64,000 nt of DNA from [Phialemoniopsis] sp. UDSM-2020 (Eukaryota; Ascomycota; Sordariomycetes; Thyridiales; Thyridiaceae), in contig JAEILZ010000004.1 in the NCBI GenBank assembly GCA_018873225.1, positions 806,001 to 870,000 on the forward strand, given 5' to 3'. Of the stretch, positions 1 to 18,975 are shown piece after piece. Below the pieces are notes generated by a model that was not told the origin of the DNA, ran no database searches, and saw nothing but the letters and a program-made list of their open reading frames with translations. The number at the start of each line of letters is the position of its first letter. The first letter of the stretch is position 1. The position numbers were made by a program, and so were the translations under genes.

Positions 1-28
1 TGCACTTGTTTTCCCAGCATCAGTGATC

Positions 29-1552
29 ATGCCGACCACCCAGTTTTCCACTCCTGACCCATACAGCTATCTCCACGGCTTTGGTTCCTATCAAGAGTAC
101 GGCCTCGCTTACCTAATGGTCTTAAAGTAGAGAGCTAAAAATTAAACAAGATCAGAATCAGTGCAGGGCGCTCTACCAGTGGGACAGAACTCGCCGCAGA
201 CTCCTCCGTATGGCTTGTACACGGAAAAGCTGTCCGGGAGTGCGTTCACTGCACCGCGCCACGAAAACAAGCAGTCATGGCTATACAGGATCCTGCCTTC
301 GGCATCGCACCAGCAATTCCAAAAGCTGGACGGCTCCGACTACCATGTTCAGCTGAGTACTGAGACGGAGAAGCTGCACTACCTTCCCAACCAACTGCGG
401 TGGAATCCGTTCGACCTTGACGAACACGTTGATTGGGTCCATGGGCTGCACGTAGTTGCTGGCGCCGGGAACCCGACCATGAAGAGTGGCTTGGGAATCC
501 TTCTCTACGCTGCTGGCAAGGATATGGGACGTGAGGCGTTCTACTCGGCCGACGGCGACTTTCTCATTGTGCCGCAGCATGGGACTTTGGACATACAGAC
601 TGAGTTTGGAAAGATCTTGCTCCGGCCGAATGAGATTGCTGTAATTCCTAGAGGTGTGAGGTTAGTACACAGGCTACCGCTGGATGGTTACAAGCTGACC
701 ACAGCAGATACCGCGTCACGCTACCTTCGGGTCCCGTCAGGGGCTACATCTGCGAGCTTTACGAAGGCCATTTCCAACTACCAGAACTTGGTCCTATTGG
801 ATCCAATGGCCTTGCCAATGCTCGTGACTTTCAGATCCCCGTCGCGAGTTTCGACGATGAGGAAGAGCCAGGACAATACACTGTTGTCAGCAAGTTTAAC
901 AACACCCTTTTCGCCGCCCGACAGAACCATACTCCCTTCGATGTCGTAGCGTGGCACGGAAACCACTATCCGTACAAATACGATTTGGGCCGCTTCAACA
1001 CCATCGGGTCGATCTCTTTCGACCATCCTGACCCTTCCATCTTTACTGTCCTCACTGGTCCCTCTAGCCGCGCTGGCACAGCTATCGCCGACTTTGTGGT
1101 GTTCCCCCCGCGCTGGCTGGTGACCGAGAATACGTTCCGTCCACCATGGTATCACCGCAACGTGATGTCCGAGTTTATGGGCCTGATAGCGGGTGACTAC
1201 GACGCGAAAGTCGGCGGCGGCTTCAAGCCGGCTGGAGCTAGTCTGCACAATGTCATGAGTGCCCATGGGCCAGACTCGGCAACACATGAGAAAGCAAGCA
1301 GCGCAACACTGAAGCCCCAGAAAGTCGGAGAAGGAAGTATGGCGTTCATGTTCGAAAGGTAAGTAATTCTAGCTTGTCTTCAATGATCGTACGCAAGTCT
1401 TGAGCTGATGCAAATGTAGCTGTCTCATGATGGGTGTTTCCGAGTGGGGGCTGAAAACCTGTGAGAAGGTCCAAGAGGATTACAATGCGGAGAGTTGGGA
1501 ACCATTGAAGAGGCATTTTGTTAGACCGAAGGACGTGGCATCTCAGACTTGA
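29..1552 (+). CDS. hmgA: Homogentisate 1,2-dioxygenase
   Basis: Predicted exons are 29-96, 151-660, 708-1358 and 1420-1552, giving 453 aa, the usual family length. All three introns (54, 47 and 61 nt) are GT-AG and restore the conserved frame. The enzyme is the non-heme Fe(II) dioxygenase that opens the homogentisate ring to maleylacetoacetate in tyrosine/phenylacetate breakdown, in the cytosol. Visible family blocks include [44 protein letters not shown] and [16 protein letters not shown]. The last carries the iron ligands His342 and Glu348; the third ligand is His379 in AHGPDS. The ATG at 29 gives a typical fungal N-terminus ([21 protein letters not shown]). It is the first gene of the inferred cluster and converges on the flavin monooxygenase. 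Its promoter lies outside the window. Confidence 0.93.
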
Positions 1553-2076
1553 TAACTAGGCCTTCAGAAGAAAGCTGTACTGGACCAAGACCTACTGGTG
1601 TAATGATTTCCAACACATCTTTAATTTAGTCCTGGCCGTATCTGACAGATATGCGCATTTTGATCCGCCGTGCAAGTGTAACCTCTTGATACAGCAAAGT
1701 CGATATTATCTCGGGGTTTGCCCAAAATAACTGAGTACATTGCTCAATATCATTGGGCTCGTTTCTTCAGTACAGTCATAGAGACCATGGGCTAATAATA
1801 TGGCGCTTGGGAGTAAGGCTCACGTCTACAAATCCTGATATTTCATTCAGTTTTTCGGGCAGGCAAGTGGGAATGTCATGTCACCACTTTTTCGCTGAAG
1901 ACGAAGAAGAATATTTAATTTCCATTGCATTCAAAAACAGACCAGTCGCAGTACATGAAAGAAGAGAACAATGATCCTTTCACGAATGTGTCGACAGCAA
2001 CGAGCACGCTTAGAAGTCAGGTGCCAGAAAGAATTCCATAGCATAAACTGGTGCCATAGTCTTGCTCCCGCCCACT
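1553..2076. other. Convergent intergenic region
   Basis: This 524-bp stretch lies between two converging genes and presumably holds both 3' UTRs. I see no supported ORF, RNA gene or repeat in it. Confidence 0.6.
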
Positions 2077-4140
2077 TCAAACATCCTTGGAATCATCCCT
2101 CCCAAACCCATCCTTGCGTACATAGTACGAGAGATCCTCGTCATTCGCGTCCTTCCAAGTGATCCCGTTTCCAAAGAAGAAATAGCGATTGGGGCTGATA
2201 TACTTGATATCGTAATCCTCGGCACGTTGCACGCTCATCAGATCCTTGAAATGCATGGGACTTCCGGCCCACATCGTGGTGACCGGACCATGGGTCTTGT
2301 TGTTCTTGTACCACGAGCGACAGTGCGAGGTGTAGACCGTGCGCTTGAGATACTCTTGTGTGTACACGTTGAAGTCTTCGATGGCCTCTTGCTTGGGGTC
2401 GATGGAGTGGATGTGCTCTTTGGCCATCTTTTCGATCCACTTGACTGCATAGAGGCCAGCCCATTCCATCTGCGGGATCAGGCTCCCGTTCCCGACAGCT
2501 GCACACGGTAATATTAGCGATGTAGATACAAAAATCAGAAGCGGCCATCGAGGATCTTACGTGAGTTTGGACCGAGGATGAAGAAGAAGTTGGGGAAGTG
2601 TCGCGCAGTGACACTCATGTAAGACTCTGGATTGTCTTTCCATTCTTCCTTCAATGTCTTCCCGCCGCGACCGACCACGGGCCACTGCTTGGCAAAAGAG
2701 ACGTCGAAACCTGTCGCACAAATGACTGCATCAACCTCATGTTTGTCCCCGTTCGCATCGATGACTCCGTCTTCTGTGAACTCTGTCACAGCGGCAAAGA
2801 CAGTGTTAACGTTGGGCTCCAGTAGTGCCTCAAGATACCCGTCGCCGGGGCTCAACCGCCTGCAGCCAAAAGCCCAGGTGGGGATCATCTTGTCAGTAAA
2901 CTCCTTCCTCCCCTGGAGCCTGTCATTCATGAGCTTGAGAGAGGCTTCCTTGAAGAACTCTTGCTCAGGAGTTCCGTATTGCAGGCCCTTGTAGAGCTTG
3001 TTGAAGTCGTGCTCGATCTTCTTGCGGTAAGCTAGCAGCTTTTCCGGGTCCTCAAATTCTTTGAGCTGCTCCTCGGTGTATGTGAAGTTCTTGCCGTCTT
3101 CGCTGGCAAACTGGGCCGCAAAGTTAGGGCTGATCCAGGTCGGCGAGCGGATGAAAGTGGTCAGCTTCTCGACAACAGGCTGGATGCTGGGGAGAATCTG
3201 GATTGCCGATGATCCGTTCCCAATGAGGGCAACCTTCTTCCCAGTGAAGTCGTAATCATGATCCCAAGCAGCTGAGTGAACTCGATGGCCTTTGAATTTC
3301 TCGAGACCTTTCACATTTGGCCACTTCCAATTGCTGTTGCTGTTAGATTGCGGACGATGGTGTATATCGGATACAGGACTGTCACATACTTGAGCACACC
3401 ACTGGCGTTAATGACCACGTCTGCTCTGTCTTCGATGATTTTGCTATCGATCTCAATCTTGACCGTCCACTTGCCCTCATCTTCGTTCCACTCGGCGTGA
3501 ACAACTTTGGCGTTGAACTTAACATCTCTATCCAAGTTGTACTCTCTTGTCACGTTTTGTATGTGCTGTCGAATCTCCGGGCCATTGGCGTAGAATCGGC
3601 TCCATTCTGTGAGACGGGTCGTTCGAATGTTAGCTGACTGTGAGCTTGATGACAGGAGCGACTAGGTGGGTGATATCACTGACTTGGATTTGGGCCCCAA
3701 GTGAAGGTGTAGATATGAGCTGGCACGTCGCAGGCCACGCCGGGGTACTGATTCTCGTACCACGTACCGCCAACTTCGGGGTTCTTCTCGTAGATGACAT
3801 GGTCCACGTAGCTTTCCATCTTCATCTCGTACCGCAACTTTACAGATCCTTTGTGAGCAAAATTCATCATAGCATCGCTTCATCAAGCATCGGGAGAGTC
3901 TAGTACCTTCTGAGCCACCATGAGGCCTGAGAAGCCAGCTCCAATAGTGATGACTCGAAGCTTGCGTGGAGTGTATAACGGTTGCTCGTTGACGGGGATC
4001 CAGTTGGCAGGCTTGGGTAGGGCATCGCCATGGGGCCCGCCCTGGTTTCGAACCCACTCTATTGGAGAGGGACGGCTTCCATCAACCGCGGTGTCTCCAT
4101 TGAGTCCGTTCACATGGGTTGGGTTTGCGATTGGCGACAT
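2077..4140 (-). CDS. Baeyer-Villiger-type flavin monooxygenase
   Basis: Exons on the minus strand are 4140-3907, 3837-3684, 3606-3390, 3333-2561 and 2498-2077, giving 599 aa, normal for class B monooxygenases. Position 3848 is an equally in-frame acceptor for exon 2. The protein has an FAD-binding GAGFSG at residues 67-72, the block [19 protein letters not shown], a second Rossmann motif GNGSSA at 240-245 and the Baeyer-Villiger fingerprint FxGxxxHxxxWD at 215-226. Such enzymes use NADPH and O2 to insert oxygen next to a ketone. It sits between the ring-cleavage dioxygenase and the cluster regulator, so an aryl ketone or related aromatic is a reasonable guess for substrate, but the sequence does not settle it. 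The ATG at 4140 was chosen over an upstream in-frame TTG. Confidence 0.87.
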
Positions 4141-4667
4141 GTTCAAAGTGATGCTGAAGAGGCTGTCATGAGGTATGAGTATGCGGCTTTGATTCTCCTC
4201 TATTGAACTATGAATCCAGGGACCGTCCGCCGTCCGCCTTTTATGGTGCCATCGTGAAGCACTTCTTCGCCCACAGGCAAATCACTCCCTTCGTCGGTTC
4301 TAGCCACCCACCAGTATCAGTAGCTCATGATCTATCAAGTTCGAACTTCCCAATCCCGTTACACGCCACCCCAGCTTTACCCCGCAATTCCATGTTGCCA
4401 ACGGAATGGTGCTCGCTGGGTTCTCCGCATAACATCTTGGGGGAATTTACGGCGCGGAACGACTTCCCGTCTCCATTTCTGTCACTTCTCCATTTTCAGG
4501 GTGTCAATATCCAGGGCGGTATCTGCTGCGCCGCGTGCACCGTTGATCACTGGTCAGGCGCGGCGCAAGAAGATGGTTTCAGAACGGTCCACCCCTTTCG
4601 AAGAGGATGGGCAGGCATACAATGCGGATCCTCGTGCAAGTGCAGCGTTCATGTTCAGATTAACTGA
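4141..4667. other. Promoter region of the flavin monooxygenase
   Basis: These 527 bp lie upstream of the monooxygenase and downstream of the regulator's stop. They contain a CGG-N9-CCG element, listed separately. No supported gene is seen. Confidence 0.55.
4455..4469. promoter_or_regulatory. Candidate Zn(2)Cys(6) site, CGG-N9-CCG
   Basis: The sequence CGGAACGACTTCCCG is a near-palindrome with outward half-sites CGGAA and CGGGA. It lies 315 bp upstream of the monooxygenase ATG. The same CGG/CCG spacing occurs in the P450/isomerase divergent promoter at 9638-9652. Binding by the cluster regulator is an inference. Confidence 0.35.
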
Positions 4668-7050
4668 CTAGAGAAAGTCTTTGAGGACGGAAGCAAGTTG
4701 GGGACCGCTTCCGAACCAAAAGCTGTCGGTGACGGGCCACTGTCCAATCTCGGATGGGAGCTGATCCCCTGGCTCCCTCCCCAGGTTTGCAGGTTCCCCA
4801 ATTGCTTCGTACAAGTCCATCAGTTCGCGACTCATCTGCATCCCGTCTACCTGCAAATCTTGGTCCTGGAACCAGGGTTCCGCGGCTATGCCCAGAGCGT
4901 CTGCTTGGCCCTGACCTTCTTCCCCGCCAGCGTTAGCGGCAGGTACCTGTGTCACCGAAGACTGTCCCTGTTGTTCAAGGCCCATCTGCGGAGCGAGCTG
5001 CCGCAGGCTCTTGATCGACCTCCATAGCCGCCGTGAGACATAAGATCTCATGGAAAAGCCTTCTATGAGCTCCAGCGCCATGTAGAACTCAGTCTTGCAG
5101 CAGCTAGCAAATTGCGTCGGTGCATGAGCCACGGCCAAAAAGAGGATCGCCAAGGCCGACACCAGAAACCAGTTGAACGTCACCTGCTGCAGCCTGTAGA
5201 TGTCGGACACTTGGTTGAGATGCGTCATGAGTCTAATGGAAGCCTTCGCAATGTCTACGACCGTGGAGGCTTCCACGGGATGTAACGCGATGTGGGTTGC
5301 GTTGAGAAGTATCGGCCTGTGCACCAGTATCCTCAACATGTTGCCGCGTAGATAAAGCAAGCTTTTCAAGCGCCAAGTGACCCGATTCGAGTTGTCGATG
5401 GGAGAGTTCGCGATGCACTCCGGATATGACAGTTTCAGCTGCTCTGGCACAGATTTGTACCATTGCATAGCCTGCCAGTCAAGACAGGCCATCTCCTCGA
5501 CCTGAGCGTTGTGGTCTGCTCCAGGGCTGCTCGTAAATCTCCATACCTTTTGTGCAATCCGACAGTAGCTGATCATGGAGCAGAGATAGGGTTCGGCAGT
5601 CTGCAGACAATACATTAGAGCCGTCACGATAACAGGTAGGGGCTAGACCTACGGGCCGAGGAAGTGAAGGGTCAATATCCATGAAGTTGAGGTGATTCGG
5701 CATTCCGGTGCCCATGCTCCATCTCACATCTAGGGTATACACAGACCAGAACATCTTGAGAGCATTCTCACGTCCTGCGGCGATAATCGAAGGTTGATTG
5801 TAGCCCTCGGCTCGGTGCAAACCCATCTCCATGCACATGCGCTGAACCGTGCCAACTGTTCTCCATGCCAGGGTTTCTTCGTCTATTTGAAATAGAAATA
5901 TGGACTAGCAGAACGTTAGAAATAGGTATTCAGACCTGAGCTTGTTTTATAAGTGAATTCGTAGTAAGACACACCACAAGAGTCAGGATCGTCGCGGTCT
6001 GCATGTCGGCAGGCCTCCACATCGTGTCAGACAACGCACCCTTGACACTCCTGAATATCCGCATGCCTAGTTCGCTGCGGCCATTCTCCTCGGCAGTTAG
6101 GGCACATGCGAAAACGATCTTGATTATGTTGACGTCTTCGTCTTTGATCAGGGGTACGTCTGCGGATAGCATTTGGCGGGTAGACAAGGAGCCGAGGTGG
6201 TCGTACAAGATGTTGACCTGCTTGATGGTCGATTCTAGCTCGAGCACCGGATACATGATACCCATTTCGTCTTCATACACACGACATAGCCGCAGTGCTT
6301 CTATTCTGCTGATGGCCCAGAAGGGCCCGACGGGTGGTGACCAAAATGCCGGGATTCCTTCGCGGTCGCGTGTCGAGGATGGCGAGGCTACTGGAGTCGG
6401 CTCTTGTGTGACATCTTCGGCCCTCTCTAGCTCGGTTATCCCTCTATCGCGGAGGCTCTGGCGGGCAATGCCGAAGTCGAAGACTGATGTGGTTGGTCCG
6501 TGGAAAGACTGATCGCGGGTTGTGCGGTTCTGGTCGTGGTCAACAGCGGCAGACGTGAGACCGAGTGAAGGTTCCCGTCGCGCGACGGACGGGCTTGATT
6601 GCGTCGCCGACAGACTCTCAACCTGTGACTGCAAGGATAGCACCTGCTCCTGGAGCTTTTCGATGCTTCTTAACAAGCATGTCAATACATTGGGGCCTGC
6701 GGCTAGGATACACATAACATCGATAGGCTTACTGATTCTCAGAGGTGACGGTGTCGGCAGGGTATTCGCAATTCAAACGCTGGCGTCGGCACCGCTCGCA
6801 TGGTTGCTGTCCACCGCATTTGATCTTGCGGCGTTTGCAATGGTTGCTATGTTCCAACTAGCGGTCAGCAAATGTTGTACGGTGAGGCACTGGCAGCGTC
6901 GGCTCAGGGATGTGTTGTGCAACAAGCCGCCAGGCTGTTTGTTCTCATTACGTACCACGCTTTAGCAACATACTTCGTCCGCTTCCGCTTCTCGGGCATC
7001 GTGCTCGCGGTGATATCGTCATCTATGTTCCATACATGCTGCGAGCTCAT
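4668..7050 (-). CDS. Zn(2)Cys(6) transcription factor, probable cluster regulator
   Basis: Exons on the minus strand are 7050-6956, 6846-6733, 6668-5975, 5904-5653 and 5600-4668, giving 695 aa. A start at 6999 would give 678 aa. The first intron interrupts the zinc cluster; splicing produces ACNHCKRRKIKCGGQQPCERC, with Cys at 32, 35, 42, 48, 51 and 58 (C-x2-C-x6-C-x5-C-x2-C-x6-C). A short coiled coil follows (IEKLQEQVLSLQSQVESL). The middle region, including the block DEETLAWRTVG followed by MCMEMGLHRAEGY, is the fungal-specific transcription factor domain. It is a nuclear DNA-binding regulator. Its position between the monooxygenase and the P450 suggests that it controls the aromatic cluster. 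The donor at 5974 is GTGTGT rather than the usual GTRAGT, but the next in-frame choice would leave an intron of only 31 nt. Confidence 0.86.
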
Positions 7051-7646
7051 ATTGGCTTCCAATTGGCCACACAGCCTTGAGTGACATGTGCTGATGCGTG
7101 TCGTCTGTTGGAGACTGGGGAAAACCTGGAGGTGCGGGGGTTTGCAAGAGTGAAAACGGAACGGGCGGGAACCGGGTACCTGTATGGGAGTGAGTGTGGG
7201 TTGACCCACCGCCCCAACCTGGAGACAAACCATAAGATCTGGGCGCTGACACCGCTAAAAGAATTGTCAGTTAGATCATTGGACCGCTCTGAGCACACGC
7301 CATAATAGCTTCCACCCTAAAGCTGCTAGACACATCGCACCGCAGGTCAGGTGGAGTTCGCATCGAGGCATTGCAACTATTACCATCCTCTGTCAACACT
7401 ACAAAAGCTTGTTTGGCATTGACTGAATAGTGAACTTTTCACGTTGACAGGCGTCGTATAGATCCACTTTGTATCATCGAACTTGCAAAGCAGCACCGGC
7501 ACATTGTTATCAATGGAGATGGATTATACCAAACTGTTTCGCAATTTCTATCTCATCTCCTCCACTGATGAAACCATGGAGTGTTTAAAGCTCTCTTGCC
7601 TTTTTCTCCGTGTCCTGCATCGACTTGTTGTCTACTTATCTCATAT
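7051..7646. other. Promoter region of the cluster regulator
   Basis: These 596 bp lie between the regulator start and the P450 stop. A GC-rich patch around 7125-7215 contains clustered CGG/CCG triplets but no clear repeat. No gene is supported. Confidence 0.5.
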
Positions 7647-9404
7647 CTACAAGTCCTTGGTACGCTCATCGCTCTCGGCGATCCACCTGGCCAGGTCCTC
7701 ACGGTTGCGTGCCTTCAGCGCGATCTTGAATGCCTTGGGCTCCGTGGTCAATGCAGTGGGGATCGAGTTGCATTCCAAGGCATCAAGAACGGGATAATCT
7801 GCGCGGTCCCTCGGCGGGTGGATAGTGAAGGCTGTGAAGATCCTGATGAATGCGGTGTACAGCTCTCTGTTAGCCAAGTGAGACCCTGCACACATCCGGG
7901 ACCCAGCACCATATCCGTAGTGAGGCGTTCCCTCACCCTCGCCACCTCCGAGGTAGCGCTCTGGAATAAACTTGGCAGGGTCCTTGAAATGGGCCTCGTC
8001 ATAGTCTGCAGCCCAAGCGTTCTAGTTAAGATTTGAACATTGGTCAGCGCTTGGCTTGGTGATATACATCGCGCTACCATCATTCGAAGATCATTGCAAA
8101 ACTCACCATGAAGAATGTTGTCCCCGCTGGAATCGTCGCGGAGCCCCATTTGATATCTCTGATGCTCCTGCGAGGTAGGCAGATGGGAATGACCGTCCAG
8201 AAGCGGAGGACTTCTTTGACGAAGGCGGTGATATAAGGGACCTTCTCCTCAACAAGACACTTCTCCCATGCGTCATTGTCGGGATACACCTTCATGATCT
8301 CCTCGTATGCAGTCTTTTGTATGCGCTGACCATCGTCGGAGGTCAGATACGCCAGTGCCATGACTAAGTTCCCAGGCACAGTATCCAAGCCAGCAGAAAC
8401 CATCGTAAGGCAGAGTGATTTGATCTCGGCTAGTAGAGTAGATAAGTCAGTATCGCCCAAGTTGAATCAGTGACGTGAATCTATGTCGGTTACTAACCAT
8501 CATTCAGCTTAGCATCAGGGTCTTTCAGAATATTTCCCGTGATGCAAGGCTTATCAGTTCCATCTGCGATCCTTTGCTTTAGGATGTTTAGTAGATGTGA
8601 TAGGTACTTATCGCGCCGGACACGAAATTCTTCGGCTTCTTTGTTGGTCTTGGGAAACAGGCGAAGAAGCGGAATGTAGTCCTGCCAGTTGTTGCTGGTA
8701 CTACGGAAATTGGAAACACCCCGTTCTACTGCAACAATTTCTTGCAAAAGAGTGTCGTCAACATTTCCCTCGATGCGAATACCGTAGTTGAGTGTCAGAC
8801 TAGTATTCAACGCGTATCGCTGGAAATAAGGAATCGGGCTGATCTCGACCGTGCCGTCTTTGCTATCCCGGAACATCTCTTTGATACTTGTTGTTGCTTC
8901 CAAGTCAATGATTGGCATATAAGACTGGACCGCGGGTCTGTTGAGGGCGGTGGCGGCAGCTTTGCGACGGCGTTTGCAAGAATCATCCCAGGGTGATGTT
9001 CCGATCGTGAACCCTTGGGAACTCGAAACCACACTATGGAAGGTGTGGAACGTAGGGCGAGATATCATGGCTGACTGCTCCTTTACCCATAGATGCTTGA
9101 CAGAATCAAAGCTATTGGCAAACACAATTCGCTAGTAACATTGTCAGTCCTATCGTGCATGCACTCCGTTGAAAGGTCGGCCCACCTTATTGCCCATGCG
9201 GACCTGAAATACAGGACCATATTTCTTGGCCCATGCCCCCGCAACCTTCGCATGGTGCTCGCCTAGTTGGAGTAGATTGCCGAATATAGGTACACCGTGG
9301 ACCTCCGGCAGATTCTTGATCTTAGGAACGTCTGTGGTGTTCAAGTAGTACCACAGTACTGCCAAGACTGACAGCACGGCGAAGCCGACTGTTTGATAAC
9401 TCAT
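7647..9404 (-). CDS. Cytochrome P450, CYP504-type phenylacetate hydroxylase
   Basis: Exons on the minus strand are 9404-9186, 9131-8498, 8429-8107 and 8021-7647, giving 516 aa. Near residues 5-20 there is an N-terminal membrane anchor, followed by a Pro-rich hinge (VPIFGNLLQLG). The I-helix motif AGLDT is at 297-301, the K-helix is EVLR, and the heme-binding segment GAGSRMCAGSHL places the ligand at Cys436. The run SSSQGFTIGTSPWDDSCKRR and the overall pattern resemble the CYP504 enzymes PhacA/PhacB of Aspergillus nidulans. Those hydroxylate phenylacetate or 3-hydroxyphenylacetate toward homogentisate in the ER membrane. The presence of a homogentisate dioxygenase gene 6 kb away supports this role. 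Ortho-hydroxylase and 6-hydroxylase subtypes cannot be told apart by eye. The gene shares an 811-bp divergent promoter with the isomerase-like gene. Confidence 0.86.
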
Positions 9405-10215
9405 GGTGCATGTAATTCGAAGCTTGATGAAGCAAAGCGCGGGACAGGATAGCTATTGTGTCTACGAAGTAAGGTCGAAGGTCTCGACAGATTTCAATAA
9501 ATACACTGTTAGGGATGCGTAGTGCCATGTACACCAGGCCACCCAGCCTGCCTCGGCGAAAGAGCTGCACCTGTGATCGCCGCTGGCGTTCCGTCTTGAT
9601 CTCCACAACCAATTGCTGGACTTACCGTAAAGGGGTGCGGAAAGGCTTTCCGTTTGAGCTAGAGCTTACATGGCGTTCCGTTGCCCTCCACTCCCACCCC
9701 GCACCACGACTCGTGATCATATGGAAAGGAAAGGAGAACGAACTTCGAGGGCGTTTCCAGGGTAGACAACCCGCTTTCGTTTCATCCAATGCAGTCCGTC
9801 GTCTTTCGAATTATCAAGCATAAAGACGACGGTTTTGTGTTCCGTCTCTCCGCTAGGTTCCCCGCATCCTCCTAACTTCTCCACATTCCAAGACCCAAAG
9901 CCCGCCGAAGAGGATGCTCGGAAATCAACAGATGATGGCCTCGAGCCAACCCAGCCACTCGCATCTGAATTGTAATGACCGATCTCTGACTAGTTGGCAG
10001 TGAGTGGAGCCAGTTGTGATATGACCTGTCAAATCCTCCTCGGCTTATATTGCCTTTCCACAGTCGATTTGCTTCTCGTGGTTTTACTCCTTCTCTCTTC
10101 ACATAACTCGCCCTGTCATCGTCTTTGTCAAACCTCATACCTTCATCTCATACCTTCATACACCTTTTGGACCTTGCTTCTATTCTTCCAACTACGTCAC
10201 TCGACACAGCCCAAC
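9405..10215. promoter_or_regulatory. Divergent promoter between P450 and isomerase-like gene
   Basis: This 811-bp interval separates two outward-facing cluster genes, so it should drive both. It holds a palindromic CGG-N9-CCG element at 9638-9652. The frame of the isomerase-like gene is open back to an ATG at 10021, but that extension has no family support and is treated as leader. No other gene is seen. Confidence 0.6.
9638..9652. promoter_or_regulatory. Palindromic CGG-N9-CCG element
   Basis: CGGAAAGGCTTTCCG is a perfect 7-bp inverted repeat around one base. It lies 234 bp upstream of the P450 start and 564 bp upstream of the isomerase-like gene. Zn(2)Cys(6) dimers commonly bind paired CGG triplets with a fixed spacer, and the same spacer recurs at 4455-4469. 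Confidence 0.4.
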
Positions 10216-10734
10216 ATGACTGTCTCTCCCAGAGTCGCTGTCCTGCGCCGCAAAATGATTGGCCACGGGTCCTTGATGCTGATGTCCTGTCTCCTTGGGG
10301 GCGTCGGCTTGTGGATGCATATCCTCGGCGGGTTCGAGATCGTGCCCGGCTACACCCTGAGATTTGACATCTGGGGAACCGAAGCCGGATGGCTGCGATG
10401 CCACACGGGCCCCGCTGCCAACGGTTTTATGGTAATCGTCTCTGCTCTCGGGCTGCCTTACATTAGCATGCCCGATTCGACTTCTGACTGGGTTGGTTGG
10501 ATCATTCTCATGGACGGCTGGTCCAACGTGGGATTCTACTTCTTCGGCAACCTTTCGCCCAACCGTGGTCTGGCGTTTGGGAAGAGCCGCCTCGGTCCTG
10601 CAAACATCTTCAGTACCTTGGCACTTGGTCCGGCCTACTTCTTTGGTGTTTTGGCCATAGGTGCCCTCGGATATATGGGTTACTATGCTCTATATGTGGG
10701 CGACAAGACCAAAGAGCGCAGCCACACATTATGA
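10216..10734 (+). CDS. Styrene oxide isomerase (StyC)-like membrane protein
   Basis: This is a single intronless ORF of 172 aa; bacterial styrene oxide isomerases have about 169. Four hydrophobic helices are visible, near residues 17-38, 64-85, 92-112 and 127-155. From memory of the bacterial family, conserved blocks are RKMxGHG, GVGLWM, GGFEIxPGY, HxGPAxNGxMVI, DGWSNVGFYxFxN, SPNRGLxFG and LAxAPAYxFGVLAxGAL. The residues reported as heme ligand and active-site partners in the bacterial enzyme (His58, Asn64, Tyr103) align with His63, Asn69 and Tyr108 here. The family uses a ferric heme b between subunits for the Meinwald rearrangement of styrene oxide to phenylacetaldehyde. The gene lies beside an aldehyde dehydrogenase and a phenylacetate-type P450, exactly where such a step would fit. 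The lack of introns and the match to bacterial proteins suggest horizontal transfer. The substrate in this organism is inferred. Confidence 0.88.
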   Translation: MTVSPRVAVLRRKMIGHGSLMLMSCLLGGVGLWMHILGGFEIVPGYTLRFDIWGTEAGWLRCHTGPAANGFMVIVSALGLPYISMPDSTSDWVGWIILMDGWSNVGFYFFGNLSPNRGLAFGKSRLGPANIFSTLALGPAYFFGVLAIGALGYMGYYALYVGDKTKERSHTL

Positions 10735-11479
10735 GAGGCGGTCAGTGGTGGACTGGAGGCAGCTGCTGGTGTATCAAGTCTAATACTTCTACTCTTGCTA
10801 GAGGTGTTCGTCCTCGGCTTATCCCAAGAATTGCTAGAGTATTATTTCAGGGCGGTCAAACATCCATTTCATTATGGCGGCGGTGCTCTATTATGCTCAT
10901 GTCATTCAGCGTCTGGCATTAAAGTCAGCCCTGGTACAATCTTCTGTAGCTCATTAAGTTTCGAATTGCATTGCGGTTTCAGCATGATTTGTCTAATAGT
11001 TAGAGTCAGTAGTATTGCGAAATCCAGTTGAGCCTGTTTTTGTACTATGTTGAAGTTTAAAACTTGCGATGACCACGAGCGTTCTTGAACGACCCTAAAA
11101 ATTCGATGTTTGAAGACAGATCCTGCAATCATCTCACTTCCATCAGTTTGGGTAAGTGTGGAAACACGGCCTCAAGCCTGCATAGAAAGTAAGCAGAGCT
11201 TACGGAAATGATACCGAAAGTCTTCCCCAATAACGGAACCCCGCCAATGTGATGCTAGCGAGCTGGCATGGTGGTTGATACCAATCTCTTCGACTTACAG
11301 CCTGTGTCCCCGATCATTCCGAGGCCCAAAAGGGGTCGCATAACCTAATGCACTTTGCGCAAGGTACATGTATAAACCGGGACCTGCAGGTATCTGCAAT
11401 GAAGCTCGTCTGAGCTACTTGTCTCGAACGTCTATTTGCATTCCACAGCGACCAGCAGACGTCACTTGATATCAACACA
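10735..11479. other. Upstream region of aldehyde dehydrogenase
   Basis: These 745 bp hold the isomerase 3' end and the dehydrogenase promoter. A CGG-N8-CCG pair at 11203-11216 differs by one base in spacing from the two N9 elements. No gene is seen. Confidence 0.5.
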
Positions 11480-13341
11480 ATGAGTACAGATATTCAGACA
11501 AAGTTATTCATCAACAACCAAGTAAGTGCACTTGCGTGATAAACGGTCCAAGACAAGTCTGACCATGACGCATCGAAAAGTATGTGGATGCGAAGTCTGG
11601 GAAGACGCTAGAGATTCGCAATCCTGCGGACGGAACAACTGTTGCTTCCAACGTGCAGGTAGCTGGGCCGGAAGACGTCAACGCTGCGGTCGACGCGGCA
11701 ACAGCAGCTTTCAATGGACCATGGCGGTCTCTCACGGGTGCTCAGCGGGGTGAACTTTTATACAAGTTCGCGGATCTGCTTGCCGAGGAACTTGATTCTG
11801 TCTTAAGGCTGGAGACGATTTCGATGGGAATGCCTATCTCCGTGGCGCGAGCTTTTGGGGGGGCCGCTGTGGCGTACTTTCGATGTGAGGTTTCGCGTCT
11901 TGTCTCTCCGCGCCCCAAGGATCCAGGGCTCATCAATGTTTTATGTCATAGTCTACGCGGGGTATGCCGACAAGCTAGAAGGAGACGTGTTCCCTCTCGA
12001 TGATGGTTTCTGCAAGATGGTACAATACGAGCCTCTTGGGGTCGTCGCATCCATCGCTTCGTGGAACGCAACACCACTGTATGAGCTAGTCCATATGAAC
12101 AAGCATCCATGATTGACTTTATGAGCAGGTATTTCGGCTGGAAGATCGCCCCCGCACTTGCAACAGGAAACACAGTCAGTACAACTATATCCTTCTTCCC
12201 TGATGGGTGCATGCTGTGTTGACGGTTGTTTGGAACTCAAGGTGATTTTCAAAGCATCCGAGAAGTCTCCGTTGGGATCCTTGGCGCTGGGAGAGCTCTT
12301 TGTCAAGGCCGGTTTTCCTCCCGGCGTGGTCAATTTTGTGACCGGCGGCGGTGAGACTGGTCAGCTTCTAGCGAGCAATCAGAAGATACGAAAGATCAGT
12401 TTCACGGGATCGGCGGCCGTCGGTCGCAAGGTTCAAGAAGCAGCTACGAAAAGCAATCTGAAGAGGGTCACTCTGGAGCTTGGAGGCAAGAGCCCGGCCA
12501 TTGTGTTCGACGATGCGTACTTCGATGCCGCGGTGTCGACGTAAGTTGTCCGCCATGTGTTGCGAGCCACCTGTTGCTGATGTGGGCCAGGATCACCGAA
12601 GGATTTCTCTTGAACTCGGGACAGGTTTGCGCAGGTATGTTCACCTTTCGTCTTTACGCCAATAAAATCTGACAAGCCGTTCTTGTAGCTGCTAGCCGCG
12701 TGTATGTCCAGGAGGCTATCGCCTCGAGGTTCGTTGCTGGTCTCAAAGCCAACTATGCAGGGGCTGCGGCTGCGCTCGGCGCCTCTCCACTCGACCCACG
12801 GACGACACTTGGGCCAGTCGCCGACGAAGCCCAGTTTAAGCGGGTGCTGACTTATATCGAAGACGGGGCAAAATCCGCTAAGCTGATCACTGGTGGCAAG
12901 CGAAAGGGTGAGCAAGGCTTCTTCGTGGAGCCCACCATCTTCCTTGATCCGGCTTCAGACTCGAAGGTGTACCAGGAAGAGATATTTGGGCCAGTCCTCG
13001 TCCTCAAGACCTTCAAAACGGAGGACGAAGTCGTTGCTCTGGCCAATGATACAGAATATGGTCTATCAGGTAAAATTTGAAATGTACCCCTGTCACATTT
13101 GTTGATTTGCTCATCGCATCCTGTAGCTTGTGTGTATACCAAAGACGTATCTCGTGCGCTTCGAGTAGCCTCAAGGCTAGAGTCTGGAACGGTGGCTATC
13201 AATTCTGCGTTTCTGCCGAACCCATCGACGGCTTTCGGAGGCTTCAAGCAAAGCGGGAATGGCGGCCGCGAATCCGGGAAATATGCTCTGCGTGAGTACC
13301 TCGAGACCAAGACGATTCATATCAAGTCAGTATTGTCCTGA
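11480..13341 (+). CDS. NAD(P)-dependent aldehyde dehydrogenase, probable phenylacetaldehyde dehydrogenase
   Basis: Eight exons: 11480-11521, 11581-11884, 11952-12078, 12129-12174, 12242-12540, 12591-12634, 12689-13069 and 13127-13341, giving 485 aa. All splice sites are GT-AG and each junction restores the family sequence. Visible features are SWNATPL with the catalytic Asn154, the cofactor loop FTGSAAVG, LELGGKSP with general base Glu252, and the nucleophile Cys286 in NSGQVCA. The enzyme family oxidises aldehydes to carboxylates with NAD(P)+ in the cytosol. Placed directly after the epoxide-isomerase-like gene on the same strand, it most likely turns phenylacetaldehyde into phenylacetate. 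Substrate specificity cannot be read from the sequence. Seven introns in 1.9 kb contrast sharply with its intronless neighbour. Confidence 0.9.
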
Positions 13342-14821
13342 TTCACTTTATTTCATCTCGTGGCTCCATCTGACAGGATAGCGGTAGGCTTTGACCTCAT
13401 TTGGTGGAGATAGTCTTGATGGGTGCACATGCTGTGTTGCTTTCTGTCTCTCTTTTGGTATGCGCCGAGTCTACGAGAAGTAGCCACAAATGTTATAAAT
13501 CAATGTCTGCCACTATCACATATTGATCGACGCTACATGAATCTCCCATCTGTTTACCTGGGCTCATGGATCATGCCACAGGATTCCACACTCCAATGCA
13601 TCAAAAAGGGTAACGGAAAAATTTGATCAAATCAATATATGAAGAGAGCCGCCTGGCGCATACAAATGGTAGTCTGGGAGTCGACCCACACTAGGTCGCG
13701 AGGAAAGACTTCTCCGTTTTTCATGGCAGTAGTAGCTTTCGAAAGACTGTTTCTCTCGTTCTTGGCAGAAGAGACCCGACACGCGACCCAGACATCACGG
13801 GTTCAAGAATTCTCCTGCACCCGTGGTGGTTAAAAGGCAGTAGTCTGTGGAGACAGATCGATAAGATATCGGGTAGAAGGGTTTCACCCGTGGTGGATCT
13901 GAGAAAGAAGATTCGTACCCTGGAGGAAAAGCACCGGGCGAGCCAACATGATGGCTTGTCTCGCATATGCACAATTTTACGTGATCCTGTGGGGGGCCCG
14001 TCGGTGGTTCCGTCTCCATCTCAGCTCAAGATCTCAAGATCTCTCTCTTCATGAGCAGATGGCATGCAAATGGTCGAATTATCACTGCATACATAAAGAC
14101 GCACTTCGCAGGGATAGGAATTGTCAGTCGTCTTTTTTCGGTCTGACGACCAAGCTTTGAGACAAGAGAAGCCAAGCAGAAAAAGCACGAGAGGCGTCGT
14201 CGCCCAGACCTGTGGCGGCTAACGTCAAATGCTTGACCGGGTGTCCTGCGCGCATAGTGTCCAAGAAGCGAGAGATCTAGTGGGTCAAAAGGAAGAAAGA
14301 AGCAAACGAGCGTGTGCCAAGTGGAACACTCTCGAGATTTGCCTCGGGATCAGAGGGTACTTTTTTCTTTACAGCGTACGTATGTTCGCAATGCCAAGAC
14401 ACCGAGTTCGGATCAGATAAGATTGAAACACCACCATCTCGCCATGCGCGGCATCCAACGGCCGGCAAGGGACCCATCCAGACTCCGCACTGGCGGCTTG
14501 GCGATATCTTTCGCGCCAATTCTTCGTCTTCGATGCTGGCATCTGGTCCACCTGCCTCGTGGACGGTGGCACCATCAGGTCCTTTATGCTCATGGCCTGA
14601 TGGGTAAAGACAGGGCCAGGGCCGTCTAATGTCACCACTTTGAGGAACGTTCCCCGAAGCCCGGCCAGGATGTGTAGATCTTCCATCTTCAGTGGGGGTG
14701 CTCAAAATGCATGTACAAAAGAGGGCTGTCAGCCCAGTCCATCAGCTTGCGCAAAATGAGAGATAACTGTTTCCCAAAGCTTCAAACTGTACTCAATTGT
14801 CATATCGGACGTTCGAAGAAA
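13342..14821. other. Intergenic region upstream of an MFS gene
   Basis: This 1.5-kb stretch shows no ORF with family support on either strand. The 12-base word CACCCGTGGTGG occurs twice, near 13818 and 13887, and the first copy forms a short inverted repeat with CACGGGT at about 13796. Function is unknown; it contains the promoter of the following gene. Confidence 0.45.
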
Positions 14822-17007
14822 ATGGCCGCCCTAAAGAGCCATCAAGACGCCGAAGAGCGCCCTCCATCCGATCACGAGGGCAAGCAAGAACCTCGAGTCG
14901 ATGAGGACTCAGTATCGGAGAAGAAGGGGAGATCTTGGGGCGTCTTTCAGTCAGATCTAATCAGGAAAGCGCCCAAGAAATGGATCATCGTCGCCTTCTG
15001 TGGGTATGTGCACATCACGACCTATGATGGCCAGCCGCACCGACTGACTGTGTGACAGCTTGTACCTCATGACCTTTGTGTTTGCTTTCGAGAGTCATAC
15101 AACCACGACGTATGCCGCCTATGCGACGAGCAACTTCAAAGGACACTCGCTTCTCAGCGCATCTCGCGTGGTCAATGCCATCACCATGCTGTTGACATAT
15201 CCGATCGTTGCCAAGCTGTCTGATGTAAGTCTCTGGATAAACCACAGAGACAAGAGGGTGACGAACTCACACTGATGGTCATAGCTATTTGGTCGTGTAC
15301 AACTCTTCACGTTTGCGATCATGCTCTCCATCATATCTCTCATCCTGTACGCCGCGTGCCAGAATATCGAGACATACTTTGTAAGACAGACTTCTGGCAA
15401 CCTTGACACTGCCGATTACTTACGCACTACTCTTTTTGCAGGTCGCCGGCTTCTTCAGTTCCATCGGCAGTGTTGGCTTCGGCATCACCCAGCAGATCTT
15501 CATCTCGGACGTCACCACCCTGCGCAACCGCGGCATCTGGCTCTCTCTGCCGGACACCATCGCCGGCATCCCGACCCTCTATCTCGGCACCTACGTCGCC
15601 GATGCCTTCCTTGACGGGCCCGGCTGGCGCTGGGGCTACGGCATGTGGTCCATCGTCGAGCCCGCCGCCGCCATCCCCTTGCTCGTGACCCTGTTCATCC
15701 GCGAGCGCAAGGCCAAGATGGCCCGCCTGCAGTCCGACGCCGTCGTCGCGCCGCGCGTGCTCAGCGAGATTCACCACGGCGACTCCATCCTGACAAAGGT
15801 GTACAAGCTGTTCTGGATCGAGCTCGACCTGCCCGGTGCGATCCTGCTCATCGCGGGCCTGGCGCTGATCCTGGTGCCCGTGTCGCTGACGGGCTCCGGC
15901 AACAGCACGGCCTGGGGCAACGCGTCGTTCATCGCCATGGTCGTCGTCGGCTTCGTCTTGTTCGTGTGTTTCCTGGTTTGGGACGCGCGGTTCGCGCGCA
16001 AGCCGTTCATCCCGTTTAAGTTGGTCAAGCACAGGACCATCGTCGGTGCGTGCATCCTCTGCGTGCTCGACTTTATGCACTACTCGCTCTTCACTGTTTT
16101 CCTACCTAGCTACCTCCAAGTCGCGGGCCACTTCTCGCCCGGCCATGCCACCAGAATTGAGTAAGTTGAAGCAACCCCAGTCGCCTCTAATCATAGGGCC
16201 ACCGGCACAAGAAACACATGACTGACATGATTAAACAGTAACTCTCTTCGCGTGGCTTTTCAAATTGCCTCCCTCGTCGCCGCCCTGCTCATGCGTTGGA
16301 CCAACCGCGCCAAGATGTGGGTTCTCGTCGGTGTGCCCCTGTGCGTTCTCGGCCAGGGTCTCGAGATCTATCTTGTCAACATCGGCGGCACGCACCCGGC
16401 CAACGAGGCGTCCTTCATCACGGCCAAGTCGCTCGTCGGTATCGGCCGCGGGTTCTACCAGACCGCGGCGCAGGTGTGCGTGCAGGCTGTCGTGCAGCGT
16501 GACGAGGTCGCTGTGGCCACGGGCGTCTTCTTCGCCAGCATGAACTTGGGTGGTGCGATCGGTACTAGGTATGTGATAAAGTCCCGTCGGACTGTTCGAT
16601 TTGGCCGGTGGCACAAGAGGACTAACATTTCATAACGCAGCATTTCGGGGGCCATCTGGCGCGCCAACCTACTGCCCAAGCTCCAGGCTTACCTACCCGC
16701 CGCGTCCAAGGCCAAGGCAGCCCAGATATTTGCCTCCATCGTCGTGGCGCAAAAGTACGCTGTGGGATCGGCTGAGCGCACAGCTATCGACCAGGCGTAC
16801 CGGGAGACGCAGAAGCTGCTGGCCATCGGGGCGACATGCGTGCTGGTGCCGATGCTGGTGGCCATGTGGTTCGTCAAGAATGTGGATCTGAGCAAGAACC
16901 CCAAGGGTATGAGCAGCGATGACGAGACTGAGGATGGGAGCAAAGTTGAGGATGCGAAGGAAAAGGGGGCCGAGAAGGACAAGGCGCAGCTCAGAGCCAA
17001 TCAGTAA
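14822..17007 (+). CDS. MFS transporter, siderophore-iron transporter (SIT/ARN) type
   Basis: Exons are 14822-15003, 15059-15224, 15285-15380, 15442-16160, 16239-16568 and 16641-17007, giving 619 aa. A charged cytoplasmic N-terminus precedes about 14 hydrophobic helices, and the C-terminal tail is strongly charged ([17 protein letters not shown]). The segment [20 protein letters not shown] after the first helix matches the pattern typical of fungal siderophore-iron transporters, as does the 14-helix layout. These plasma-membrane or vesicle proteins carry ferric siderophores by proton symport. The gene follows the aldehyde dehydrogenase on the same strand. Cluster enzymes need heme or non-heme iron, so iron supply is possible. 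A diverged member that exports or imports aromatic compounds is equally possible. The ATG at 14822 was preferred over longer in-frame options without family support. Confidence 0.78.
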
Positions 17008-17385
17008 CTCAGGGCATCTTGCCATGGGTCGAGCAATCGGAGCACCTCCTATTCAGGAGCCGGTTTGTGCCATGGTCCATCCGAGATGAGATAGTCATTG
17101 AGTCAAGAGCTGCTGCGAAGCACAAAAGAAACTCAACTAATTCACTAGTGCACACCCGGTCCGGTCCCAAGTCACATCCGGTGGTATCAACGTCAGTTTG
17201 ATAGATCGGCAATGCAGGCACGGATCACGCTTTGTGATGATTGTCAATTAATTGATCCCTTCTTATCTCGTCTTCCATCATCTCCTGGACAGCGATCCTG
17301 CGCGTACAACACCTCGAGCTCACACCTAACTGCAATATACCCCTTGCACCCTCCACCGGCACTCCCTGCACGCCTGACTGCACCC
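17008..17385. other. Convergent intergenic region
   Basis: These 378 bp between two converging transporter genes show nothing beyond likely 3' UTRs. Confidence 0.55.
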
Positions 17386-18975
17386 TCAATAAGTGTATCG
17401 GAACTCCGGCTTCTCTCGGTCGGTTTTATCGGAGAACTCATTGGCGACCGCGATTTCGCTAGTTAGCATGGCCGTCGTGGCGTTGTCCCGTCTCTTGTTC
17501 TCCCAGTAGCAGAGAACTCCGTACAGAGAGATAGATATGCTAGCCACCACGAAACAAGCCAAGAGACCGATGTATCCATGACTGTAGTTCGGGGCATCGG
17601 AAGATCTAAACATTTGCGGGCCAATGATGTTGCCGACGCAATACGCGAGAAAGTAGATGGCGTTCATCGTCACCTTCTTGGTGTGTCCTGAAACGTTCGC
17701 CATTGGTACTGATGTTGACATGACCCAGGGGCCCCAGTAGGTGTAGAATACGAAGTATGCTGCTAGGAGCCCGTTCTTGTTTGACTGGGGTAGCTTCCAC
17801 ATGAGGATCGCGCAAGCCATCGGGACGAGGTTTGCGATCGCGATGATGGTGCAACGCTTGTTCTTTAGCCGGGCACAGGGGGCGGCGAGAATGATTTGCC
17901 ACAGAGTGGCGACAACACCAGTAGGCATGCCCAGCAGAGTAGTGATGCTTGATGTATAGCCGAGGCCCGAAACGATAAGTGCCGCGAAGGTTACTAATCC
18001 GCCATTGGGGATGTTCTGGGCACAAGCGAACACAGCCAGTAGCCAGGTCTTGGGGTCGACGAGACACTCCTTGAGTTGATACCATTTGATCCTCTTCTCC
18101 TCGATGCCGGTGTTGTTCACTTGCACACGCCGGACGCAGATGTACCTCTGCCGTTTCGATAACCACCATGCGGAGACTGGTGAGTCGGGGAGGAACGTCA
18201 GGAGCAGGAGGGCCCAGAGTATGGAGAAAGCGCCAAGCACGATGAAGAGGAGTCGCCATTGCGCGAGGCTTGTGTGGGTCTTCGAGATGCCATACGAGAC
18301 TATGCCTGAGAATAAGGACGAGAACTGACGGTGAGTTGCAATTAGTTTGACTGGGTTTAGGTTCGCATTGGGTGAGTGTACACTTACTTGGTTGAACCAG
18401 ATTGCCACACGGATTGGCTGCTCTTGATTCGTATACCACATGACTGTCAAAATGCTTGCGATCGGAAATGCCCCTGCCTCGGTACAGCCCATGATGAATC
18501 GTACAGCCGCGAGACCTGCAAAGTTGTGTGTCGCGGCCGTGCAGAAAAGCATCACCGCCCAGCAGAAAGTCAACCCGGCTAGCAGCTTTCCAACTGGAAG
18601 ACGCTGGATTAGAATAGCCGTCGGCCACTCGAAAACCAAATATCCAAAATAAAAGATACTGCCGGACCAGGAATATTCGTTGCCGATGAGGTTCAAGTCA
18701 GTCTTCATGCCCAGAATCGCGGCGTTGGAGATGATGACTTTGTCGACCGCGCTCAAAATCACGGTGCCGGCGATAAGTGGCAGAACAATCAAGTCAATCT
18801 TCCACAGAACTTTGCGAGCCTCGCTCGGTGAGATAGGGGTATCCTTGACCGAGGCGTCGAGGGTCGACAGAAACTTGGCGGCGATATCATCCTCATGCAG
18901 CACAACCGTCTCACCAGGTTGAGCAGAGGTAGTCGGTTGGAGTTCTTTAGACTGCGGCATCTTCGAGATATCCAT
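17386..18975 (-). CDS. MFS transporter, Dal5/allantoate-permease-like (anion:cation symporter family)
   Basis: Two exons on the minus strand, 18975-18388 and 18324-17386, give 508 aa. The intervening 63-nt intron happens to be open in frame, so an unspliced reading would add 21 foreign residues between WFNQ and FSSLFSG; its GT/AG ends and the family pattern show that it is an intron. About 12 membrane helices are visible, with family blocks such as KVIISNAAILGMKTDL, GNEYSWSGSIFYFGYL and MGCTEAGAFPI. This family imports organic anions such as allantoate, ureidosuccinate and nicotinate across the plasma membrane. At the right edge of the aromatic cluster, it is a reasonable candidate for uptake of an aromatic acid such as phenylacetate, but that is inference. 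Confidence 0.86.
   Translation of the reverse strand: MDISKMPQSKELQPTTSAQPGETVVLHEDDIAAKFLSTLDASVKDTPISPSEARKVLWKIDLIVLPLIAGTVILSAVDKVIISNAAILGMKTDLNLIGNEYSWSGSIFYFGYLVFEWPTAILIQRLPVGKLLAGLTFCWAVMLFCTAATHNFAGLAAVRFIMGCTEAGAFPIASILTVMWYTNQEQPIRVAIWFNQVSVHSPNANLNPVKLIATHRQFSSLFSGIVSYGISKTHTSLAQWRLLFIVLGAFSILWALLLLTFLPDSPVSAWWLSKRQRYICVRRVQVNNTGIEEKRIKWYQLKECLVDPKTWLLAVFACAQNIPNGGLVTFAALIVSGLGYTSSITTLLGMPTGVVATLWQIILAAPCARLKNKRCTIIAIANLVPMACAILMWKLPQSNKNGLLAAYFVFYTYWGPWVMSTSVPMANVSGHTKKVTMNAIYFLAYCVGNIIGPQMFRSSDAPNYSHGYIGLLACFVVASISISLYGVLCYWENKRRDNATTAMLTSEIAVANEFSDKTDREKPEFRYTY

Follow-up and report, generated by a model that had tools for sequence, protein, structure and literature searches.

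What is a gene for a bacterial-type styrene oxide isomerase doing in a fungal genome, and could it serve the fungus in the breakdown of styrene? This question is raised by an open reading frame in a 64-kb stretch of fungal DNA (the window: positions 806001-870000 of contig C6), which an original prediction made from the letters alone had assigned to the StyC family. The evidence set out below consists of the family, fold and conserved active site of the encoded protein, its gene neighbourhood (Table 1), a duplication of the neighbouring CYP504A gene, a matching gene order in Clonostachys and an FDC1 homologue elsewhere in the genome; the substrate, the order of the pathway, the part played by unlinked P450s and the regulation are our interpretation. 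On this evidence we consider it likely that the gene encodes a membrane-bound styrene oxide isomerase that depends on haem b, descends from bacteria and works in the fungus, in the route proposed below.

Table 1. The isomerase frame and its neighbours, in window coordinates
Feature	Position	Strand	Product and gene structure	Pfam domains and remarks
Homogentisate 1,2-dioxygenase (HGD)	29..1552	+	453 aa, 4 exons (3 introns)	PF20510, PF04209
Baeyer-Villiger-type flavin monooxygenase	2077..4140	-	599 aa, 5 exons (4 introns)	PF00743
Zn2Cys6-type fungal transcription factor, candidate regulator of the pathway	4668..7050	-		PF00172, PF04082 on hand-joined partial model; exon joints approximate
CYP504A-type phenylacetate 2-hydroxylase P450	7647..9404	-	516 aa, 4 exons (3 introns)	PF00067
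Styrene oxide isomerase (StyC-type)	10216..10734	+	172 aa, intronless	ATG start, TGA stop
Aldehyde dehydrogenase (ALDH), candidate phenylacetaldehyde dehydrogenase	11480..13341	+	485 aa, 8 exons (7 introns)	PF00171

The isomerase protein and its predicted active site

As predicted, the frame is open from its ATG to its TGA. Its openness is in itself little evidence of a gene, because the complementary strand in the same register meets two stops close to one of its ends and then runs on for about 158 codons without any; neither is its length, as an ATG frame of at least 172 aa was present in 13 of 20 random 64-kb sequences of equal G+C. What makes the frame a gene is its homology to the StyC model and to a solved isomerase. 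The protein matched NF045734 (StyOxIsoStyC), the curated equivalog model of NCBIfam, with an E-value of 3.8e-58 and 195.7 bits against a cut-off of 150 bits, and phmmer aligned it with the styrene oxide isomerase of PDB entries 8pnu/8pnv at E 7.5e-57, colinearly across residues 5-161. A search of 5.8 billion proteins gave 160 related ones at E<=1e-3 (the names and identities of database homologues quoted here come from the best 120 of these 160 matches). Eight out of eight further rows of fungal type, five from named fungi and three without a species name, pass the same NCBIfam model with 180.9-217.6 bits. No match was obtained with the 172-aa protein in a local copy of Pfam, and PF26512 is annotated on database homologues among the matches listed. 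Read at the level of sequence, these results support in substance the first assignment of the protein to the StyC family.

The residues that had been proposed as equivalents of the haem-ligand histidine and of two further active-site residues were chosen correctly, as His63, Asn69 and Tyr108 align with H58, N64 and Y103 of the Pseudomonas enzyme (SOI) in 8pnu, and D100 and N104 with its D95 and N99. Together with R117, these five residues are invariant in all 18 isomerases of our alignment A1. In the passages of PMC11374702 on the Pseudomonas SOI, ferric haem b sits where the subunits of the trimer meet, with H58 as its ligand, and the substrate network includes N64, D95, N99 and Y103; the H58A protein is colourless and inactive, N99A and Y103A are inactive, and N64A and D95A are impaired. 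R117 is the equivalent of R111 of Rhodococcus opacus, which lies near a haem propionate and whose alanine variant is described as retaining haem with significantly reduced activity (PMC12502698). One reported contact that differs is Thr20, described as locking the haem ligand in the Pseudomonas SOI (PMC11374702), which is Cys25 in the window protein; since C, S, A and T all occur at this position among the 18 sequences, also in those from bacteria, Thr20 does not define the family.

The predicted four-helix layout was recovered by an AlphaFold2 model (mean pLDDT 92.1) with long helices at residues 5-37, 56-82, 87-112 and 131-161, and its fold is that of 8pnu. In a Foldseek search, 8pnu_A was the only PDB match at E<=0.001 (E 1.2e-16, rmsd 0.9 over 150 columns, 59% identity), with a TM score of 0.94 by target length and 0.85 by query length. 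The original prediction had also spoken of a "cofactor-free-in-redox", haem-dependent isomerase, and here only the redox-neutral part can stand: the enzyme is not cofactor-free, since the bacterial protein carries ferric haem b (PMC11374702). Haem binding, activity and a membrane site are what the likeness to that protein would lead one to expect of the fungal one.

Two other readings of the protein have to be weighed at this point. Its four membrane helices in the model, and the fact that human PS-1/mPGES-1 chains come next among the Foldseek matches, might point to some other, unrelated group of four-helix membrane proteins, for example that of the microsomal prostaglandin E synthases. However, the best E-value of these chains is 0.34 with an rmsd of 7.0, as compared to 1.2e-16 and 0.9 for styrene oxide isomerase, the local Pfam copy offers no other family for the protein, and the StyC model, phmmer and Foldseek all lead to styrene oxide isomerase, by which we regard this idea as refuted and its remaining probability as negligible. 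It might also be argued, from the one substituted second-shell residue (Thr20 to Cys25), that the gene is a transferred relic, non-functional in its host. This we find very improbable, as the frame is open, the active site is invariant, the protein is 80% identical over its full length to that of Bionectria (among the matches listed), and the partner ALDH gene has been kept in another fungus, Clonostachys.

Origin of the gene and its passage between fungi

The host genome (44.2 Mb in 11 contigs), fungal to judge from the genes around the isomerase, has a single isomerase locus. Bacterial contamination was considered and rejected, as the gene lies 816 kb inside a 4.6-Mb contig and is flanked by intron-bearing genes. 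A viral source was rejected as well, a scan of viral contigs having given no relatives. When genome contigs were scanned with the single window protein, no relatives were found, and a scan with alignment A1 gave 37 loci. The isomerase tree was built from 84 of the 156 available rows, picked for spread; P0014 and P0031 (short; altered end) and L056 (a partial match) had been dropped, and in three locus translations with one stop each the stop was set to X.

In this tree, the window protein clusters with the isomerases of Bionectria ochroleuca and Clonostachys byssicola (100/99). The motif RCHTGP is found in 16 of the 156 rows, and these make up one group (99/92) of seven named ascomycete rows, the window included, and nine rows without a species name; together with the basidiomycete Exobasidium they form a 17-row branch (100/99). 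It follows that the eight named fungal rows are one branch only if the nine further rows inside it are counted as fungal by their position. The next rows, joined to these in a branch of 24 rows with modest support (88/81), include alphaproteobacterial ones, from Rhodospirillales MAGs and a Caulobacter. Among bacteria, homologues occur in Alpha-, Beta- and Gammaproteobacteria and in Actinomycetota. Because they are found in such a wide range of bacteria and the fungal ones look scattered, bacteria to fungi is the likelier direction, and a transfer in this direction best accounts for the tree and for the patchy occurrence in fungi. In the AU test, a position of Exobasidium, which has a long branch, outside the other fungi was not rejected (p 0.13 and 0.076), and there may have been one or two transfers into fungi, with a separate one into Exobasidium. 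Of the acquisition from bacteria that had been claimed, the bacterial affinity is borne out by the phylogeny, and the direction and the number of transfers are what we infer from it. Composition gives no sign of transfer, as the G+C content of the isomerase gene (55.9%) is near that of the window (55.0%).

Several rows of the isomerase collection deserve mention in their own right. In Rhodococcus jostii NBRC 16295 (NZ_BCWY01000008.1), roughly 9 kb separate two isomerase genes of divergent sequence (L033 and L045), and a MAG of Rhodococcus likewise has two copies, each on its own contig (L031 and L047). For a Rhodopirellula MAG, the isomerase (L034) hardly differs from the one in Marinobacter flavimaris (L036), so that the contig is probably mis-binned. 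A transcriptome protein from EukProt (P0020) lies among isomerases of Hydrocarboniphaga and probably comes from bacterial contamination, not from a eukaryotic gene.

A second kind of transfer is suggested by the dehydrogenase that follows the isomerase gene at a distance of 745 bases from stop to start, on the same strand. In C. byssicola, one annotated chain (P0283) consists of about 152 residues of isomerase and then an ALDH, the latter beginning at the equivalent of the second exon of the window ALDH. We read this chain as two neighbouring genes, with the order and strand seen in the window, that gene prediction has probably run together; it may also be a real fusion protein. For the trees, P0283 was split at residue 152, and P0208 was trimmed to 520 residues. 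The latter, a CYP504A of Clonostachys solani, carries a cupin domain (PF07883) in its annotation and may likewise be two gene models run together.

In the ALDH tree, the window sequence groups with those of Clonostachys and Bionectria (99/96), within a branch with Talaromyces (100/100). A grouping of the window ALDH with Talaromyces to the exclusion of Clonostachys/Bionectria was weakly disfavoured (p 0.032, for a group named after the tree had been seen), and one of the Clonostachys/Bionectria ALDH with those of Neonectria and Plectosphaerella was rejected (p 9.5e-06). Clonostachys belongs to the Hypocreales, and the CYP504A sequences of C. solani and B. ochroleuca group with four other rows, from Sordariomycetes, away from the CYP504A of the window. 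These sequence comparisons suggest that the isomerase-dehydrogenase pair moved between fungal lineages. On the other hand, the rejection of the Neonectria/Plectosphaerella grouping may reflect ALDH paralogy, and paralogy, instead of a transfer of the pair, may then lie behind the pattern.

The gene neighbourhood and the proposed styrene route

The gene models of the neighbours were spliced by hand. They agree with the predicted fungal gene order of intron-rich genes around the isomerase (3, 4, 3 and 7 introns in HGD, the flavin monooxygenase, CYP504A and ALDH, respectively), and likewise with the predicted catabolic cluster, as ALDH, CYP504A and HGD are neighbours of the isomerase and fit the steps that would follow it. 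By its PDB matches, the ALDH is ALDH1/2-like (best E 1.1e-126); 4o5h, the entry named as a phenylacetaldehyde dehydrogenase, ranks in the middle of these matches (E 7.8e-103), which we count against the proposed role. The P450 has its best listed matches in Rasamsonia byssochlamydoides (82% identity) and Talaromyces marneffei (80%), many of the matches listed are named phenylacetate 2-hydroxylase, and it is 77% identical to the phenylacetate hydroxylase pahA of Penicillium chrysogenum; judged by these similarities it is within the CYP504A phenylacetate 2-hydroxylase family. For the CYP number we follow PMC5844311.

No StyA/StyB-like styrene epoxidase was recognised among the neighbours (window positions 1-19000), where the only cluster P450 is of the phenylacetate 2-hydroxylase family. 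The styrene monooxygenase A domain PF17885 was found nowhere in the genome, which is weak evidence, as 14 control genomes were silent as well. The flavin monooxygenase has a 12-residue motif that we take to be of the Baeyer-Villiger type, and cyclohexanone and phenylacetone monooxygenases are among its PDB matches. The proposed styrene route has no place for such an enzyme, which we count against the route; it may mark a ketone or a branched-aldehyde substrate. Past 14.8 kb lie two genes of transporter type: a TRI12 match below the cut-off was obtained for one and a clear MFS match for the other, and we left both outside the cluster. In ORF lists inspected by eye, no further pathway gene was recognised over the 20 kb that precede the window, and two upstream ORFs run against Pfam were a Zn2Cys6 protein and a short-chain dehydrogenase.

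Elsewhere in the genome there is a second CYP504A gene, on contig C10, which a quick tree pairs with the one in the cluster as its sister (SH-aLRT 95; 82% identity), and a third, more distant CYP504-like P450 is on C1. Other HGD homologues lie on C9 (71% identical) and C4 (68%), with more distant ones besides, including one on C1. By these comparisons the cluster CYP504A is an extra, lineage-specific duplicate, as the sister copy on C10 indicates, and the cluster HGD is one of several. On C1 (481858-487368), an HGD homologue, a gene of the fumarylacetoacetate-hydrolase family and a CYP504-like P450 lie within 6 kb. It is known that fungi can make styrene from cinnamate via Fdc1. UbiD-family genes are present at two places in the genome; one of them, a homologue of ferulic/cinnamic acid decarboxylase (C7:391291-391896), matches the Aspergillus niger Fdc1 in the PDB at E 8.3e-118, with an ALDH fragment about 3 kb off (C7:394729).

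The following course of reactions can be proposed. Styrene, possibly formed internally from cinnamic acid by the FDC1-like decarboxylase, would be oxidised to styrene oxide, probably by an unlinked P450, which we think likely by analogy with Exophiala jeanselmei, as far as accounts of that fungus go. In the isomerase, ferric haem held by His63 at the subunit interface would act as a Lewis acid and take the epoxide oxygen, with Tyr108 and Asn69 holding that oxygen in place; ring opening would leave a benzylic cation, from which a 1,2-hydride shift would lead to phenylacetaldehyde (Meinwald rearrangement). The adjoining ALDH would then produce phenylacetate and the adjoining CYP504A 2-hydroxyphenylacetate, which a further P450 encoded elsewhere would turn into homogentisate, the ring of which would be opened by the neighbouring HGD. 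This order of ALDH, CYP504A and HGD follows the fungal phenylacetate breakdown described for Rhinocladiella mackenziei (PMC5844311).

It is also conceivable that the isomerase is active and that in nature it acts on a different aryl or alkenyl epoxide, derived for example from plant phenylpropenes, with styrene being incidental and the flavin monooxygenase acting on the resulting ketone or branched aldehyde. This would give that otherwise unexplained enzyme, with its cyclohexanone- and phenylacetone-monooxygenase matches, something to do, and the bacterial enzyme is described as accepting substituted epoxides (PMC11374702). Yet ALDH, CYP504A and HGD fit the passage of unsubstituted phenylacetaldehyde through phenylacetate to homogentisate, and we think such a substrate unlikely. 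A little less probable still is a purely protective role, in which the isomerase would remove styrene and styrene oxide arising from the fungus's own decarboxylation of cinnamate and would supply no carbon. The FDC1 homologue is in keeping with this idea, but the extra CYP504A and an HGD beside the gene point to full breakdown over detoxification. We lean towards a dedicated eukaryotic styrene-degradation cluster, in which a bacterial haem-dependent Meinwald isomerase was combined with a fungal ALDH and duplicated native phenylacetate-pathway genes, the isomerase-dehydrogenase pair having then moved between fungi; we hold this fuller account with less confidence than the reading given at the outset. 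If it is true, a catabolic cluster was assembled from a transferred bacterial gene and duplicated native ones, the missing gene of the fungal styrene route is supplied, and a link is made to the styrene that fungi form from plant cinnamate.

Comparison with known styrene-degrading systems

The original prediction had expected a rare eukaryotic member of a bacterial family. A fungal copy it is, but not the first, since database homologues occur, among the matches listed, in B. ochroleuca, Capronia epimyces, C. coronata, Metarhizium humberi, M. majus and Exobasidium rhododendri, and those of Capronia and Metarhizium already bear the name styrene-oxide isomerase in UniProt or NCBI. These proteins share the tree branch of the window isomerase, and the gene neighbourhood of such a fungal copy is known to us for Clonostachys byssicola only, from the joined gene model. 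A further sequence, KIV94526.1, comes presumably from Exophiala mesophila. It is called 'EmSOI' in a figure legend of PMC12502698. In the open-licence literature searched, as far as its passages were available, no fungal styrene oxide isomerase gene or cluster was found described, and what we report adds a protein to an established enzyme family, within a genomic context for which no description was found in that literature.

To our knowledge, the styrene route of the fungus used in biofilters is known as chemistry and not as genes. The 1996 study of E. jeanselmei by Cox et al. is said to have reported isomerase activity, and as far as we know it is a biochemical description that names no gene. 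P450-dependent styrene oxidation and a phenylacetaldehyde dehydrogenase are ascribed to this species (Cox et al. 1996, AEM 62:1471, as cited in PMC5874493 and PMC7910268), so that its route resembles the one proposed here, in biochemistry there and in genes here. Work with a fungus in biofilters against styrene vapour is likewise on record (Cox thesis 1995; Cox et al. 1996; cited in PMC9476466 and PMC5874493).

In R. mackenziei, CYP504 and HGD genes with consecutive locus tags have been discussed as a styrene route (PMC5844311); they are like those of the window, and the passages of that account on them name no styrene oxide isomerase. According to the same source this fungus might hold all enzymes of the styrene pathway, which conflicts with PMC7179667, where, in the passages concerned, styrene-pathway genes were not detected in E. 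dermatitidis, E. spinifera, R. mackenziei and Cladophialophora immunda. In C. immunda, 109 genes have been called transferred, some of them in a toluene route, which makes it a precedent for bacterial genes in fungal aromatic degradation; the passages in question are on toluene, and their mention of styrene concerns homogentisate only (PMC5595782).

The isomerase gene and its neighbours make the fungal styrene route testable, and the place of the gene among the host's own genes for breakdown of the product hints at a way in which certain fungi could live on styrene. If our reading is true, this is a eukaryotic haem enzyme that uses its iron as a Lewis acid and not for redox chemistry, which could be useful for aldehyde production. 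In bacteria, the StyA, StyB, StyC and StyD genes form an operon. The StyC of Pseudomonas sp. VLB120 (8pnu, 8pnv; PMC11374702) has the same fold, 59% identity and the same haem-ligand and substrate-network residues as the window protein, which differs in its fungal host, in its intron-bearing fungal neighbours with no StyA/StyB-like epoxidase recognised nearby, and in the change of Thr20 to Cys. The bacterial isomerase is followed by an ALDH that gives phenylacetate, which is described as passing onward via phenylacetyl-CoA (PMC5874493). A linked ALDH, here a candidate for the role of StyD, is thus common to both systems, whereas the fungal neighbours point to 2-hydroxylation and homogentisate.
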